Assembly (NCBI RefSeq): GCF_000373105.1
Contig: NZ_KB890419.1
Location: 1-64,000 of the forward strand
Length of the DNA: 64,000 nucleotides
Source of the DNA: Neolewinella persica DSM 23188
GTDB taxonomy: Bacteria; Bacteroidota; Bacteroidia; Chitinophagales; Saprospiraceae
Reading direction: 5' to 3'
Shown here in pieces: positions 41,156 to 61,938 of this stretch. The notes below the pieces were generated by a model. The model did no database searches and was not told the origin of the DNA. It saw only the letters and a program-made list of their open reading frames with translations. Each line of letters starts with the position of its first letter. Position 1 is the stretch's first letter. The position numbers were made by a program, and so were the translations under genes.

Positions 41156-41511
41156 TATTCAGTATAAGAACATTGTGCGCTGAACCCTGATTCCTGAATA
41201 CTTCATAGAGGGGCGGGGCCGCAGGTGCAAAGGAACGTTTGAAAGCAATGTTCGTACTACTGACCAGGTCGTTGTTACAGCCGACAGGCAAACTTCTGCC
41301 CGGCTTCGCCAGGCCGGAAGAATTTGTCGGACGGCCGGAGCATCCGTCCGACGGATTCTTTCCTGTTTGCGACGAAGGAGCAATAACGGGAAAGTCCGTC
41401 TGACGGGTTGTAGAGCGAATGCTGGCCACTAATCCCTACAACCATATCCCTATCTTAGCCCCTCTTTTCGGAGGCTCCTGGCCTTTTACCCAAACCAACT
41501 AAACTATAAAC
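41156..41511. other. Gap with motif copy j and a hairpin
   Basis: Three TGAAYCC-type heptads (about 41181-41201), motif copy j, then a 51-codon ATG frame (41248-41403) that I do not recognise. The frame is partly built from a hairpin with GTCGGACGG arms (41326-41334 and 41344-41352), so it is probably not a gene. CCTATCTTAGCC near 41450 could be a -7 element for the M28 gene. Confidence 0.5.
41211..41230 (+). repeat. Dispersed motif copy j (GGGG variant)
   Basis: The sequence is GGGCGGGGCCGCAGGTGCAA followed by AGGAACGTTTGAAAGCAA. It lies 56 bp past a plus-strand stop, pointing away from the next gene, so it is an exception to the usual orientation. Confidence 0.85.
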
Positions 41512-57567: not shown

Positions 57568-58440
57568 ATGGCAGTTCTTGTAACTAAAGATTCAAACATC
57601 ATCGTCCAGGGAATCACCGGAAAGGAAGGTGGTTTCCACGCCGGACAGATGAAGGAATACGGTACCAACCTGGTTGGTGGTGTTACCCCCGGAAAAGGCG
57701 GTCAGGAAACCCTGGGCGTTCCCGTATTCAACACCGTAGCTGAGGCGGTAGCCAAAGTCGGTGCTGACGTCACCGTTATCTTCGTGCCCCCGCCCTTCGC
57801 CGGTGATGCGATCATGGAGGCAGCGGTTGCTGGCATCAAGGTCATCATTTGTATTACCGAGGGTATCCCGGTACAAGACATGGTGAAGGTGCGTTCCTTC
57901 ATCAACGATTACGACTGCCGCCTGATCGGCCCGAACTGCCCCGGCGTCATCACGCCCGGTGAAGCCAAGTGTGGTATCATGCCCGGATTCATCCACAACC
58001 CCGGCCGTATTGGCATCGTTTCCCGTTCCGGCACCCTGACTTACGAAGCCGTAGACCAGGTCACCAAGGCTGGTATGGGCCAGAGTACTTGTATCGGAAT
58101 CGGTGGTGACCCCATCATCGGGACTACCACCAAGGACGCCGTAGAATTACTGATGAACGACCCCGATACCGACGGTATCGTGATGATCGGTGAGATCGGC
58201 GGTACAATGGAAGCCGACGCTGCCTACTACATCAAAGAACACGGCACTAAGCCAGTAGTCGGTTTCATCGCCGGACAGACGGCCCCGAAAGGTCGTACCA
58301 TGGGCCACGCCGGTGCCATCGTAGGCGGTCATGAAGACACCGCCGAAGCCAAGATGAAGATCATGGCCGAATGTGGCATTCACGTAGTAAGCAGCCCGGC
58401 GGAGATCGGCATTACTATGGTGAAGGCGTTGAGTAAGTAA
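57568..58440 (+). CDS. sucD: Succinyl-CoA synthetase alpha subunit
   Basis: The product has 290 residues. Together with SucC it converts succinyl-CoA to succinate and makes ATP or GTP in the TCA cycle. The CoA-binding N-terminal domain ([20 protein letters not shown]) is followed by the [20 protein letters not shown] block, [13 protein letters not shown] and the phosphohistidine in [10 protein letters not shown] near residue 250. sucC is not adjacent, which is common in Bacteroidota. A T-run terminator follows immediately. Expression probably comes from the TACCTTCG upstream. Confidence 0.97.
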
Positions 58441-58459: not shown

Positions 58460-58502
58460 TAAAAATGCGCTGACGCTCTCTGGAACGTCAGCGCATTTTT
58501 TA
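58460..58502 (+). terminator. Terminator after sucD
   Basis: The stem AATGCGCTGACG/CGTCAGCGCATT encloses a 10-nt loop and is flanked by A-runs on one side and six T residues on the other. Confidence 0.88.
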
Positions 58503-58603
58503 TGCCTGGTCAGGAGTTGGACTATAGTTGCCCCGGTCATCAGAGGTGATTTTGCGTTCGCGTAACGAATGCGGCCTTTAAGAAGTCTGTCCAGTAGGGG
58601 CGC

Positions 58604-58857
58604 CCCTTGCGGCTATGGTGTGCACACATCTTTACGGTGCTCTAAATGATCGCGATTTTACACATCCGATGAACTTTCAGCCGACTACGTCAGGCTGAAA
58701 GATGCATCGGATGAGAAAACCGCGTGACTGTCGAGCCGTTTTCTCATCGTAGGCATCTTTTTTGAGCACGGAGGCGAAGCCGAAGCGCTCAAAAAAGTTC
58801 CTCCGATGTGTAAAACGGCGGGTCTGTAAACTTGTGTGCACACCATAGCCCTTGCGG
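58604..58857. mobile_element. MITE with 9-bp target duplication
   Basis: The 236-bp element at 58613-58848 has perfect 16-bp terminal inverted repeats (CTATGGTGTGCACACA and its complement). Similarity continues inward about 60 bp with gaps (TTTTACACATCCGATGAAC against TTTTACACATCGGAGGAAC). Immediate flanks are direct repeats CCCTTGCGG at 58604-58612 and 58849-58857, a 9-bp target duplication. Inside are three more perfect hairpins: CTTTCAGCC/GGCTGAAAG (58673-58701), GATGAGAAAAC/GTTTTCTCATC (58710-58748) and CTTTTTTGAGC/GCTCAAAAAAG (58757-58797). No transposase is encoded, so it moves only with help from a related IS; a 9-bp duplication is compatible with several families. Confidence 0.9.
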
Positions 58858-59059
58858 TCGCCCGACTGGTCGCCCAGCAGGTGAAATATATTCACCTCCG
58901 GAGCCCGAGACTGGTATAGCCAGTATCTTCCTGCAGTGAAGTTGTCTGTTCTAGGCCGAGTTGTTGTTTCAGGAGATTAAAATTATCCCCTCTATTGACG
59001 CAAGTCCGAATGGAAAATGAGGAATCACGATTCGCAATGGCTGGCCTTCTACCATTCCC

Positions 59060-59193: not shown

Positions 59194-61938
59194 TTGCCGC
59201 TAAAAGTCTTCTTGTCCATACTCCTGCTAGTGCTGCCAGCGAGCGGGGGCGGTCTGTGGAGCCAGGAAAGCCTTTCCTTTCCGAAGGTGCATGCGTTTAC
59301 GACCAATACTTATGGTGGTGGCAACCAAAACTGGGACATCGCCCAGGGGGAGAACGGTTTGCTGTACGTAGCAAATACCTCCGGAGTCCTGAAGTACAAC
59401 GGCGTTAACTGGACGACCCTTTCCTTGCCCGGGAATCCTACCGTACGTTCCCTTGCGGTAACTGAAGCCCGACTATATGCTGGTGGCTACGGCGAATTCG
59501 GCTACTTCGAAAACCCGGAAAATGCGGACCCGAAATGGATCTCTCTGGCAAGTGACCTTACCAGCCCTGACCGGAATGAGGAAATTTGGAATATTGAGCT
59601 ATTGCCTGGCGGGTCAGTTGCTTTCCAATCTTTTGGCCGCCTTTTTATTTATGATGGGTCCTCGCTTCAAACGGTCGTTCCTCCGGGGGTGATGATGTTT
59701 GCGCGGGTGTGGAAAAACGATTTGATTGTTCCCGTAACGGGGCAGGGTCTTTTTCGCTGGACGGCCGAAGAAGGCTTTTCTCTTCTGCCCGGCACTACTG
59801 AGCTTGGAGACCAGGAAGTCGTCAGTATAGTACCCTGGGAAAACGGTCTGTTACTCGGCAACGCTGACGGAATTCTATTTTGGGACGGCACCAACTTGGT
59901 GCCATGGTCAGCCACCGTAAATGCACAACTTAGGGATCGTGAAATAAACAGACTGGAGGTGCTGAAGGATCACTCTTTGGCGATCGGTACCATCACCAGC
60001 GGTTTATATATTTGTAATCCGACGAAGCAGACATTACTTCACCTTGATGAGGTTAGTTCCCTGAGTAACAATACGGTGCTATCGCTTTTTCAAAGCGCTG
60101 CCGGTAATTTGTGGGTGGGCCTGGATCGTGGCATTGATCTGATTGACCGCTCCGGAGCGATTAAGTACCCCTCCAGAATGGAGCGACCACCGGGAGCTGT
60201 CTACGCTGCGCTTCAGTATGGCGGGCGAACCTACCTGGGGACGAACCAGGGGCTCTACTGGTTAGATACCTTGCGCGCCACCCCGATGTACCACCTGATT
60301 TCCGGTACCTCCGGCCAGGTCTGGGAGCTGAGACCTACGCCTAAGGGTTTACTTTGCGGGCATAATGAAGGAACTTTTCTGATTCAGGATACCACCTCCA
60401 ACGTGATTTCTGAACGTTCGGGCGGTTGGCAAACGGTTGACTTGAAGGACGGGACCAACCGGCTGTTACAGGCGACCTACACTAACCTGCAATTACTAAC
60501 GCCCGCAATAGCCGGGTTCGAAGCCGTTGACATTCCTGGGTTCAGTGCGCCTATTCGGTACCTTAGACAAACGGGACCAAGATCTTTTCTAGCACTCCAT
60601 GGATCCAGGGGAGGATTTGTTGTCCATTTAAGCGAGGACTACCTGCGGGTCATTAGCACAGACACCTTAGGGGAGCCATCGTTGATCAAGGCTGGAATGG
60701 TTGCCTTCCATGACACGATACTGGTTCAGAACAACGAAGCAATCTACCATTTTAAAGAAGGGAAGCTGGAAAAAATAGCTGCTTTTCGCGGGGTCCCGCT
60801 TGAGCGAGGCAACTATTGCCTCAAGGGGGAGGAGCGCACCAATGAGTGGTTTGTTTATCAGCCTGACCGGGTCAGGGTATATCGAGGGAGCAGTCAGATA
60901 GCCGAAATGCCATTGCGCCTAAGGTATCCCTTCCCCGTTATTCTTCCCTGGAAAGACAACAAGTACCTGTTCTTACTCGAAGAAGGCTTTGCGGAGGTAG
61001 AGGTGTCAAAAGAGGAAGGCCCATTTCCCGGCCTGCTCTTACAATCTGCCTGCCGAACGAACCTGGATTGGCGCGTGTTGGAAACCAGCGATGCACTACC
61101 GGAACTCCATTATGCGAATAATGACCTGCACTTCTCGTTTGCACTTCCAGTATTTGACCGGCCGGTTCGTTACCGGAGCAGGTTGGTCGGATACTCCGCC
61201 GAAGACTGGTCGGCGTGGTCCTCACTGGGAGAGCGCGAGTTCACCAGTCTGCCAGCAGGTAATTACCGATTTGAAGTAGAGGCGAACTGGTTTGGCACAA
61301 AGGCAGAACGCTCTTTTTCCATTCTGCCACCCTGGTATCTATCTAATTTTGCCTACCTGGCTTATGCACTCTTTTTAATGGTGTTGGGCCGACTACTCTA
61401 CCGGCTGCACCTGCGCCGGTTGGAAAGGCAGGCACGTCACCTTGAAGTAGTACGGAAAAGGGAATTACAACGGGAGCGCATCCTGGCCAGGAATCGGGAG
61501 CTTCGGACCGATGTAAAGCGAAAAAGTAAGGAGCTGGCGAATACAACCCTGACTTTGGCAAAGAAAAACGAAATGCTGCTGGCCCTGAAGGAGGAGTTAG
61601 CTAAAGGACATAATAACCCATCGGGAGGTATCGACCACCGAAAAGTAGGGAAGCTGATTGACCGGAACCTCAATAACAAAGAGGACTGGGCCATCTTTGA
61701 ATCTCATTTCAACGAAGTCCACGAGGCATTCCTGAAACGCCTGCGAAAAGAACATCCTGAATTGACTACGGGTGACCTCAAACTGGCGGCTTACCTGCGT
61801 ATGGACCTTAGCTCCAAAGAGATTGCTCCGCTGCTGCATATCTCGTTAAGGGGCGTAGAGAATAAGCGCTACCGGTTGCGGAAAAAACTGGGCCTGGGAG
61901 GGGACGATAATATGAATCGATATTTATTGGAATTTTAG
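59194..61938 (+). CDS. Propeller/Y_Y_Y transmembrane regulator with LuxR-type HTH
   Basis: The product has 914 residues from a TTG start, with a signal peptide (1-23). A two-component-regulator-type beta-propeller (about 25-590; GLLYVANTSGVLKYNG and NLWVGLDRGIDLIDR are typical blades) is followed by a Y_Y_Y-like beta-sandwich (about 620-710; RYRSRLVGYSAEDWSAWSSLGE). After it come one membrane helix (YLAYALFLMVLGRLLYRLHL, about 720-740), a coiled coil, and a C-terminal helix-turn-helix (LTTGDLKLAAYLRMDLSSKEIAPLLHISLRGVENKRYRL). It probably senses a ligand outside and acts on DNA or another partner inside as a one-component regulator. The giant repeat gene 169 bp downstream is a likely target. 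Confidence 0.88.
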   Translation: MPLKVFLSILLLVLPASGGGLWSQESLSFPKVHAFTTNTYGGGNQNWDIAQGENGLLYVANTSGVLKYNGVNWTTLSLPGNPTVRSLAVTEARLYAGGYGEFGYFENPENADPKWISLASDLTSPDRNEEIWNIELLPGGSVAFQSFGRLFIYDGSSLQTVVPPGVMMFARVWKNDLIVPVTGQGLFRWTAEEGFSLLPGTTELGDQEVVSIVPWENGLLLGNADGILFWDGTNLVPWSATVNAQLRDREINRLEVLKDHSLAIGTITSGLYICNPTKQTLLHLDEVSSLSNNTVLSLFQSAAGNLWVGLDRGIDLIDRSGAIKYPSRMERPPGAVYAALQYGGRTYLGTNQGLYWLDTLRATPMYHLISGTSGQVWELRPTPKGLLCGHNEGTFLIQDTTSNVISERSGGWQTVDLKDGTNRLLQATYTNLQLLTPAIAGFEAVDIPGFSAPIRYLRQTGPRSFLALHGSRGGFVVHLSEDYLRVISTDTLGEPSLIKAGMVAFHDTILVQNNEAIYHFKEGKLEKIAAFRGVPLERGNYCLKGEERTNEWFVYQPDRVRVYRGSSQIAEMPLRLRYPFPVILPWKDNKYLFLLEEGFAEVEVSKEEGPFPGLLLQSACRTNLDWRVLETSDALPELHYANNDLHFSFALPVFDRPVRYRSRLVGYSAEDWSAWSSLGEREFTSLPAGNYRFEVEANWFGTKAERSFSILPPWYLSNFAYLAYALFLMVLGRLLYRLHLRRLERQARHLEVVRKRELQRERILARNRELRTDVKRKSKELANTTLTLAKKNEMLLALKEELAKGHNNPSGGIDHRKVGKLIDRNLNNKEDWAIFESHFNEVHEAFLKRLRKEHPELTTGDLKLAAYLRMDLSSKEIAPLLHISLRGVENKRYRLRKKLGLGGDDNMNRYLLEF

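Follow-up and report, generated by a model that had tools for sequence, protein, structure and literature searches.

The DNA analysed here (the window) is a stretch of 64,000 nucleotides of Neolewinella persica DSM 23188, on contig C7. With a probability of slightly more than three in four, we interpret the 236-bp element at positions 58613-58848 of this window as a MITE of the IS4/IS50 type with a REPIN-like core, built from a module type that is associated in the genus with a RAYT-type Y1 (HUH) enzyme. The features of the element and of its insertion site are the following, with bit scores of the modules referring to a covariance model, R1, whose training set contains both sequences:

58591-58602, forward strand: left half of the imperfect target palindrome, CCAGTAGGGGCG, 6/12 pairs at this site
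58604-58612, no strand assigned: left copy of the target duplication, CCCTTGCGG, 9 bp
58613-58848, forward strand: MITE body, 236 bp
58613-58631, forward strand: left end, CTATGGTGTGCACACATCT, with inner part ACACATCT
58654-58721, forward strand: first hairpin module, REP-like, 89.1 bits against R1
58737-58817, reverse strand: second hairpin module, REP-like and inverted, 69.4 bits against R1
58830-58848, reverse strand: right end, given as its reverse complement CTATGGTGTGCACACAAGT, 18/19 match with the right end of an IS on contig C15
58849-58857, no strand assigned: right copy of the target duplication, CCCTTGCGG, 9 bp
58858-58869, forward strand: right half of the imperfect target palindrome, TCGCCCGACTGG, 6/12 pairs at this site

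The initial annotation had described this stretch as a MITE whose terminal repeats are perfect over 16 bp and which is flanked by a 9-bp target duplication. Both are present: CTATGGTGTGCACACA at 58613-58628 is matched by its reverse complement at 58833-58848, and CCCTTGCGG is found on both sides of the element. The identity as a MITE holds as well, because by the features tested the element is short, has terminal repeats, lacks a transposase gene, exists in multiple copies and shares nearly the same ends with an IS. Specifically, the sole ORF of at least 60 aa that overlaps it, 72 aa long and on the minus strand, extends beyond the element and is taken as spurious. The MITE starts 172 bp past the stop codon of a gene at 57568-58440, which reads as that of the succinyl-CoA ligase alpha subunit, sucD (named by eye), and is separated from it by a terminator-like hairpin at 58461-58500. 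Downstream of the MITE a long gene starts at 59194.

A search for further copies and for a full IS with the same ends had been recommended as a check, and both gave matches. The genome (G000), a draft assembly of 7.08 Mb in 84 contigs, holds six copies of the MITE: four of full length, on C7 (the window), C35, C23 and C18, one at 94% on C20 and a truncated one on C17. The four full copies are about 99% identical, with pairwise differences at 2-4 positions if the Ns of the C35 copy are counted and at 0-4 without them; four near-identical full copies at different loci rule out chance repeats. In addition, a second MITE subfamily of 234 bp, with the left end CTACGGTATACACACATCT and the same two-module plan, is found at C35:132304, C78:93472 and C38:48992, with target duplications of 9/9, 9/9 and 8/9, respectively. 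The full-length MITE was not found in 59 relatives, and the congener G007 has two remnants with related ends. The orthologous place had also been proposed for inspection: 19/19 other congeners in which sucD was found lack the insertion up to about 1-1.5 kb from this gene, which rules out a vertically inherited intergenic element; two modules lie near sucD in the congener G019. The search for an exact empty site of the window insertion gave none, as the insertion flanks had no match in the sucD region of the congeners.

The one IS with nearly the ends of the MITE is on C15 (G000:C15:62933-64504, 1572 bp), with the ends CTACGGTGTACACACAAGT and CTATGGTGTACACACAAGT, the latter being the one that agrees with the MITE right end. 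It encodes a 504-aa ORF that scores 222.6 bits against NCBIfam NF033590 (IS4 family, cut-off 160), matches Pfam DDE_Tnp_1 above cut-off and has the Tn5 transposase as its best PDB match (E = 4.4e-20). The shared transposase family, as given by NF033590 and the Tn5 match, and the 9-bp duplication at most of the MITEs would place the parent IS in the IS4 family, IS50/Tn5 type. The inner halves of the Tn5 ends fit this assignment: we take that of the ME to be ACACATCT, as in the MITE left end, and that of the OE to be ACACAAGT, as in the MITE right end. Compared with Tn5, however, the C15 transposase is only distantly similar and the outer part of the ends differs, and unlike ISs of the IS50/Tn5 type the MITE carries no gene. 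Apart from the C15 transposase, the genome gave no further match of this kind. A tblastn protein scan of genome_contigs with this transposase found no relative, and relatives at E <= 1e-20 occur in 9/298 genomes of the order, its own included.

The position of the first catalytic Asp in the C15 copy is occupied by Asn (LNACS, codon AAT), the frame being otherwise open. Asp stands there in 8/8 aligned relatives, for example in LDGCT, SDSSS, CDTST, LDSTE, QDTTQ and QDTCE, and among them in a Lewinella MAG copy that is 46% identical; seven relatives entered the alignment from the other genomes with a match, one each from 7/8, while a short fragment from G047 was left out. From its sequence, the C15 copy is thus predicted to be catalytically dead. 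Since it is the only IS copy found, the present mobility of the MITE in this strain is doubtful. With the genome available as a draft in 84 contigs, more copies of the IS may exist than the assembly shows, and an active one may either have been lost or be absent from the assembly.

Nearly the same end sequence was also observed on contigs from other phyla, namely L195, L197 (Atlanticothrix silvestris), L193 (Nostoc spongiaeforme) and L192 (a MAG labelled Helicobacter cetorum). L195:3427-3717 (Nostoc sp. FACHB-973) shows an inverted pair of such ends spanning about 290 bp, and on L197 an end adjoins sequence with a match to the C-terminus of the C15 transposase.

Target duplications were scored at 11 insertions with such ends, comprising the MITE, the second subfamily, relatives and the IS, with the truncated C17 and C84 copies left out. 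Six are perfect, two match at 8/9, one at 7/9 and two at 6/9; the 9-mers on the two sides of the C15 IS read as exact reverse complements, not as direct repeats. When the flanks were joined, their symmetry about the duplication averaged 5.8/12 pairs, compared to 3.0 in window DNA, and 0/20000 random draws were as high, for a palindrome score picked after the sites had been seen. This symmetry also exceeds that expected from GC-rich positions alone, and moving the centre by at least one base brings it down to the background level. It is carried mainly by three of the 11 sites, C2, C33 and C15 (9-10/12), with C35a, C35b and C38 at background (2-3/12); as C33 and C15 lack a direct duplication, their empty sites were joined as though a 9-bp duplication existed, and the values of these two rest on that assumption. 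Furthermore, the repeat CCCGGAGGGTCGCCCGGC has 43 matches at up to 3 mismatches, against 11 for a reversed control, and 5/43 abut four elements with such ends, each time with the head of the repeat at the element edge. These data are consistent with a preference for GC-rich palindromic repeats, which would be entered at their centre or at a fixed point.

A comparable preference is described for ISRm22 in the part of Tobes and Pareja (2006, PMC1525189) used here: this member of the IS4 family inserts at the symmetry axis of REPs. The likeness lies in the family, the palindromic repeat targets and the insertion at the axis, whereas ISRm22, as presented in that part, is an IS with a 6-bp duplication, and the present case is a MITE with 9 bp in a different host. 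As a separate observation, a Y1 transposase fragment at G000:C28:32424-32872 (L128) adjoins an inverted pair of CCCGGAGGGTCGYCY...TCG, the repeat given above as CCCGGAGGGTCGCCCGGC, which several IS4-type elements entered.

The three hairpins of 9, 11 and 11 bp that had been noticed in the core all exist. The first lies at 58674-58682/58693-58701 and the second at 58757-58767/58787-58797, while the third, GATGAGAAAAC/GTTTTCTCATC at 58710-58720/58738-58748, pairs arms of different modules because the core is an inverted pair. The initial annotation had regarded this core as unusually elaborate for a MITE; the hairpins stand, but they belong to two inverted copies of a REP-like module that is found throughout the genus and is frequent outside the MITE. 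The module is 60-100 nt long and has three stems. The outer and the apical stem vary, and the mid stem reads CMTCSGAKG; a conserved internal loop, ACA/AG, separates the outer from the mid stem, and a second one, AA/ATG, the mid from the apical stem. A fold of the core RNA had been suggested; the full 236 nt, when folded, gave z = -11.4 as RNA and z = -10.2 as DNA, and in either case 0/200 shuffles were as stable. Most modules read start with TTTT and finish with AAAA, on either strand.

Counts obtained with model R1 are lower bounds, as up to 150 candidates per genome were scored, and up to 51 in the search of other genera. At E <= 0.01 the own genome has at least 92 matches, many of them in inverted pairs of both orders; within the genus, at least 9/21 genomes have 10 or more matches and at least 15/21 have one or more. 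Outside the genus, 98 genomes of the same family were searched with stricter filters, and none of the matches listed reached E <= 1e-5. Among the best 45 of the 92 or more own matches (E <= 1.2e-9, hand count), 17 are inside elements with Tn5-like ends. No such ends were found at 12 loci holding 20 of the other 28 modules, two MITE loci serving as positive controls. In the congeners, 1/32 scanned module loci, some of them overlapping, has a matching end (L051), and a weaker remnant was seen by eye at L043. With a matching end at 1/32 congener loci and 0/12 own loci outside the MITE, the explanation of the modules as decayed MITE ends is ruled out.

Covariation was measured on two alignments against shuffles that ignore the relatedness of the modules: A1, a MAFFT alignment of 24 modules that is independent of the model, and A2, 72 distinct modules fitted to R1. 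In A1, 91.0% of the stem cells pair, compared to 73.0% after shuffling, and 93 cells are double-changed, compared to 28.8 in shuffled and at most 22 in slid alignments; sliding by 1-3 columns destroys the signal. In A2 pairing reaches 92.5% (69.8% shuffled), with 354 double-changed cells against 110 shuffled and at most 76 slid. The excess is modest for the number of A2 pairs that show changes on both sides (18, compared to 15.7 after shuffling) and for further pair types (61, compared to 55.6), and two of five covariation measures on A2 were reached by 9-10/500 shuffles. The compensatory changes between copies that had been proposed as a check are likewise present between the two subfamilies. 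Comparing their first hairpin, 4/6 changed pairs are compensatory in C35b, 4/7 in C78 and 5/7 in C38 (one of these five turning an unpaired A/C into G/T), and as most of these changes are common to all three copies of subfamily 2, the figures do not count as independent. Another possible source of compensatory changes is template switching at quasi-palindromes.

These results bear on the possibility that the element is an ordinary IS4-type MITE whose hairpins act as generic insulators or terminators, the likeness to REPs being incidental. Hairpins are common inside ISs and MITEs, and this MITE does sit between the terminator-like hairpin behind sucD and the next long gene. However, the same module is found outside elements with such ends, both in the own genome and in congeners, and its internal loops are kept while the stems covary; in addition, the TTTT...AAAA edges leave a hairpin without a T run behind it, which speaks against a generic terminator. 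We therefore consider this explanation unlikely.

The initial annotation had also raised the idea that the core is itself a structured RNA, which would then have a function of its own and be dispersed by the MITE. The very stable fold and the strong covariation would suit such an RNA, but the composition of the stems would not: G-T occupies 27 and A-C 39 of the 1532 stem cells (22/24 pairs), and G-T makes up about 2% of the standard pairs. As G-T is not above A-C, the preference for wobble pairs that an RNA should have is seen on neither strand, which favours a module that would act as a DNA hairpin. A search of Rfam gave no match to the core up to E = 1 and two tRNAs only over the whole window, and the modules occur singly as well as in inverted pairs of both orders. 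The RNA reading is thus disfavoured, and we regard it as very improbable.

The link to a RAYT-type enzyme comes from the congeners. Specifically, G019 carries at L130:1061-1603 a 180-aa ORF with an HFH motif, with two modules upstream and one downstream of it; this ORF matches NCBIfam NF047646 REP_Tyr_transpos at E = 1.3e-11, its score of 44.6 being below the cut-off of 80, and Pfam Y1_Tnp only at E = 0.02. A RAYT gene of the G019 type is present in five further congeners (48-54% identity, the G006 copy having an in-frame stop), where the repeats beside it differ from R1. CATCSGATG occurs in both flanks of the gene in 5/6 of these genomes (G019, G020, G001, G006 and G016), and G012 shows the compensated form CGTCSGACG in both flanks; in the controls, whose count covers CATCSGATG only, this motif is found at 1/54 loci. 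When 60 Y1/RAYT loci were examined (two sets, with genes possibly shared), strong R1 modules were present at one and weak ones, of 13.9-19 bits, at three sister loci. Of the nine genomes with at least 10 module matches G019 alone has a close RAYT, and the other five RAYT genomes have 0-2 matches listed. The nearest RAYT of the own genome is 42% identical and has different flanking repeats. The Y1 genes of the own genome were rejected as partners of the module, as no R1 module was found around the six examined of the seven (all but the one on C68).

That a Y1 (RAYT) enzyme moves the entire element as a REPIN, with the IS-like ends as decoration, is scarcely credible: the modules do form an inverted pair and the RAYT-type gene in G019 is flanked by modules, but the 9-bp duplications lie directly beyond the CTAYGG ends, as for a DDE transposase, the ends are shared with a DDE IS, and target duplications are not known from Y1 enzymes of the IS200/IS605 type.

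The sequence tags of classical REPs were searched within 12 nt of 56 modules. GTAG was found three times upstream and once downstream, and CGTC likewise three times upstream and once downstream, with about two expected for each, which is the chance level. We therefore term the module REP-like and not a GTAG REP, and the core is REPIN-like without belonging to the GTAG REPs. CTAC, which is GTAG on the other strand, was seen downstream of 8/56 modules, largely related copies, with about two expected.

Compared with REPINs and REP doublets as described in the parts of Bertels and Rainey (2011, PMC3116915) and Nunvar (2010, PMC2817692) used here, the core shares the inverted palindromic pair and the many copies, and, as in the REP/RAYT systems of these sources, a RAYT-type gene is flanked by the repeats, here in a congener. 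It differs from REPINs, as those parts present them, in the module of 60-100 nt, built of three stems that are separated by two conserved internal loops, in the missing GTAG tag and in the location of the module pair within DDE-transposon ends. RAYT/Y1 genes flanked by inverted, partly self-complementary non-GTAG repeats, able to form families, are described in part of Di Nocera (2013, PMC3733652) as TIRYT/TIRtron. The arrangement of Y1 genes with non-GTAG inverted repeats is similar here, by description and not by sequence; these families come from other species, and a term search of the text of that source gave neither Lewinella nor Saprospira. A literature search for Lewinella together with REP found no paper.

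Taken together, we favour an element that would be a non-autonomous DNA transposon (MITE) of an IS4-family, IS50/Tn5-type IS. A transposase acting in trans would bind the ends of about 19 bp, excise the element and insert it with a 9-bp stagger, with GC-rich palindromic repeats as preferred targets, hit in the centre or at a fixed point. The interior would be a REPIN-like cassette of two inverted copies of the three-part hairpin module, probably captured by an internally deleted IS and later spread with the DDE ends, and its hairpins would presumably be recognised as single-stranded DNA. REPINs have been suggested, in the part of Bertels and Rainey (PMC3116915) consulted, as possible building blocks of more complex repeats. 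A further step, which we hold to be unlikely, is that the REP-type pair has switched systems: once spread by a Y1 (RAYT) enzyme, it would now spread within DDE ends, and its hairpins would aid the DDE element, for example by forming a cruciform in which the ends meet or by allowing movement by either enzyme. If this were true, the compensatory changes seen between subfamilies 1 and 2 would follow from selection acting on the hairpins within the MITE.

Each ingredient of the element is of a known kind, while a DDE MITE with a REPIN-like core is new; among the listed titles and abstract openings of the literature on REPIN, MITE, IS4, Tn5/IS50 and palindromic targets, none describes DDE ends combined with a hairpin pair of the Y1 type. 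If the favoured reading is correct, a repeat of the kind credited to Y1 (RAYT) enzymes travels as cargo of a DDE transposon, which amounts to a second dispersal route, and two mobile-DNA systems are apparently joined in one small element. Moreover, a REP-like family, so far from one genus, is documented with a three-part hairpin and conserved internal loops, and the core motif shifts in step around the RAYT-type gene, which makes the recognition of hairpins by RAYTs testable across species.

Some further module-like structures were encountered. A weak hairpin in the window at 41278-41337 (22.2 bits, E = 8.8e-4) has another mid stem, in the CCGACAGG/TTTGTCGGACGG region, and is possibly another REP-like class. 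At G015:C2:13200-15850 (L113), two module-like hairpins with the mid stems CGTCNGACG and CC-GGAGG/CCTCCGAGG are jointly repeated in direct orientation about 2.3 kb apart. Finally, a small element with the ends TAGGGTGRTWA...TWAYCACCCTA or close variants lies inside modules or MITEs at L033 (G000:C84:145552-145965), L035, L037 and L032; it is flanked by CATCCGATG or variants, as if it targeted the mid stem of the module with a 9-bp duplication.
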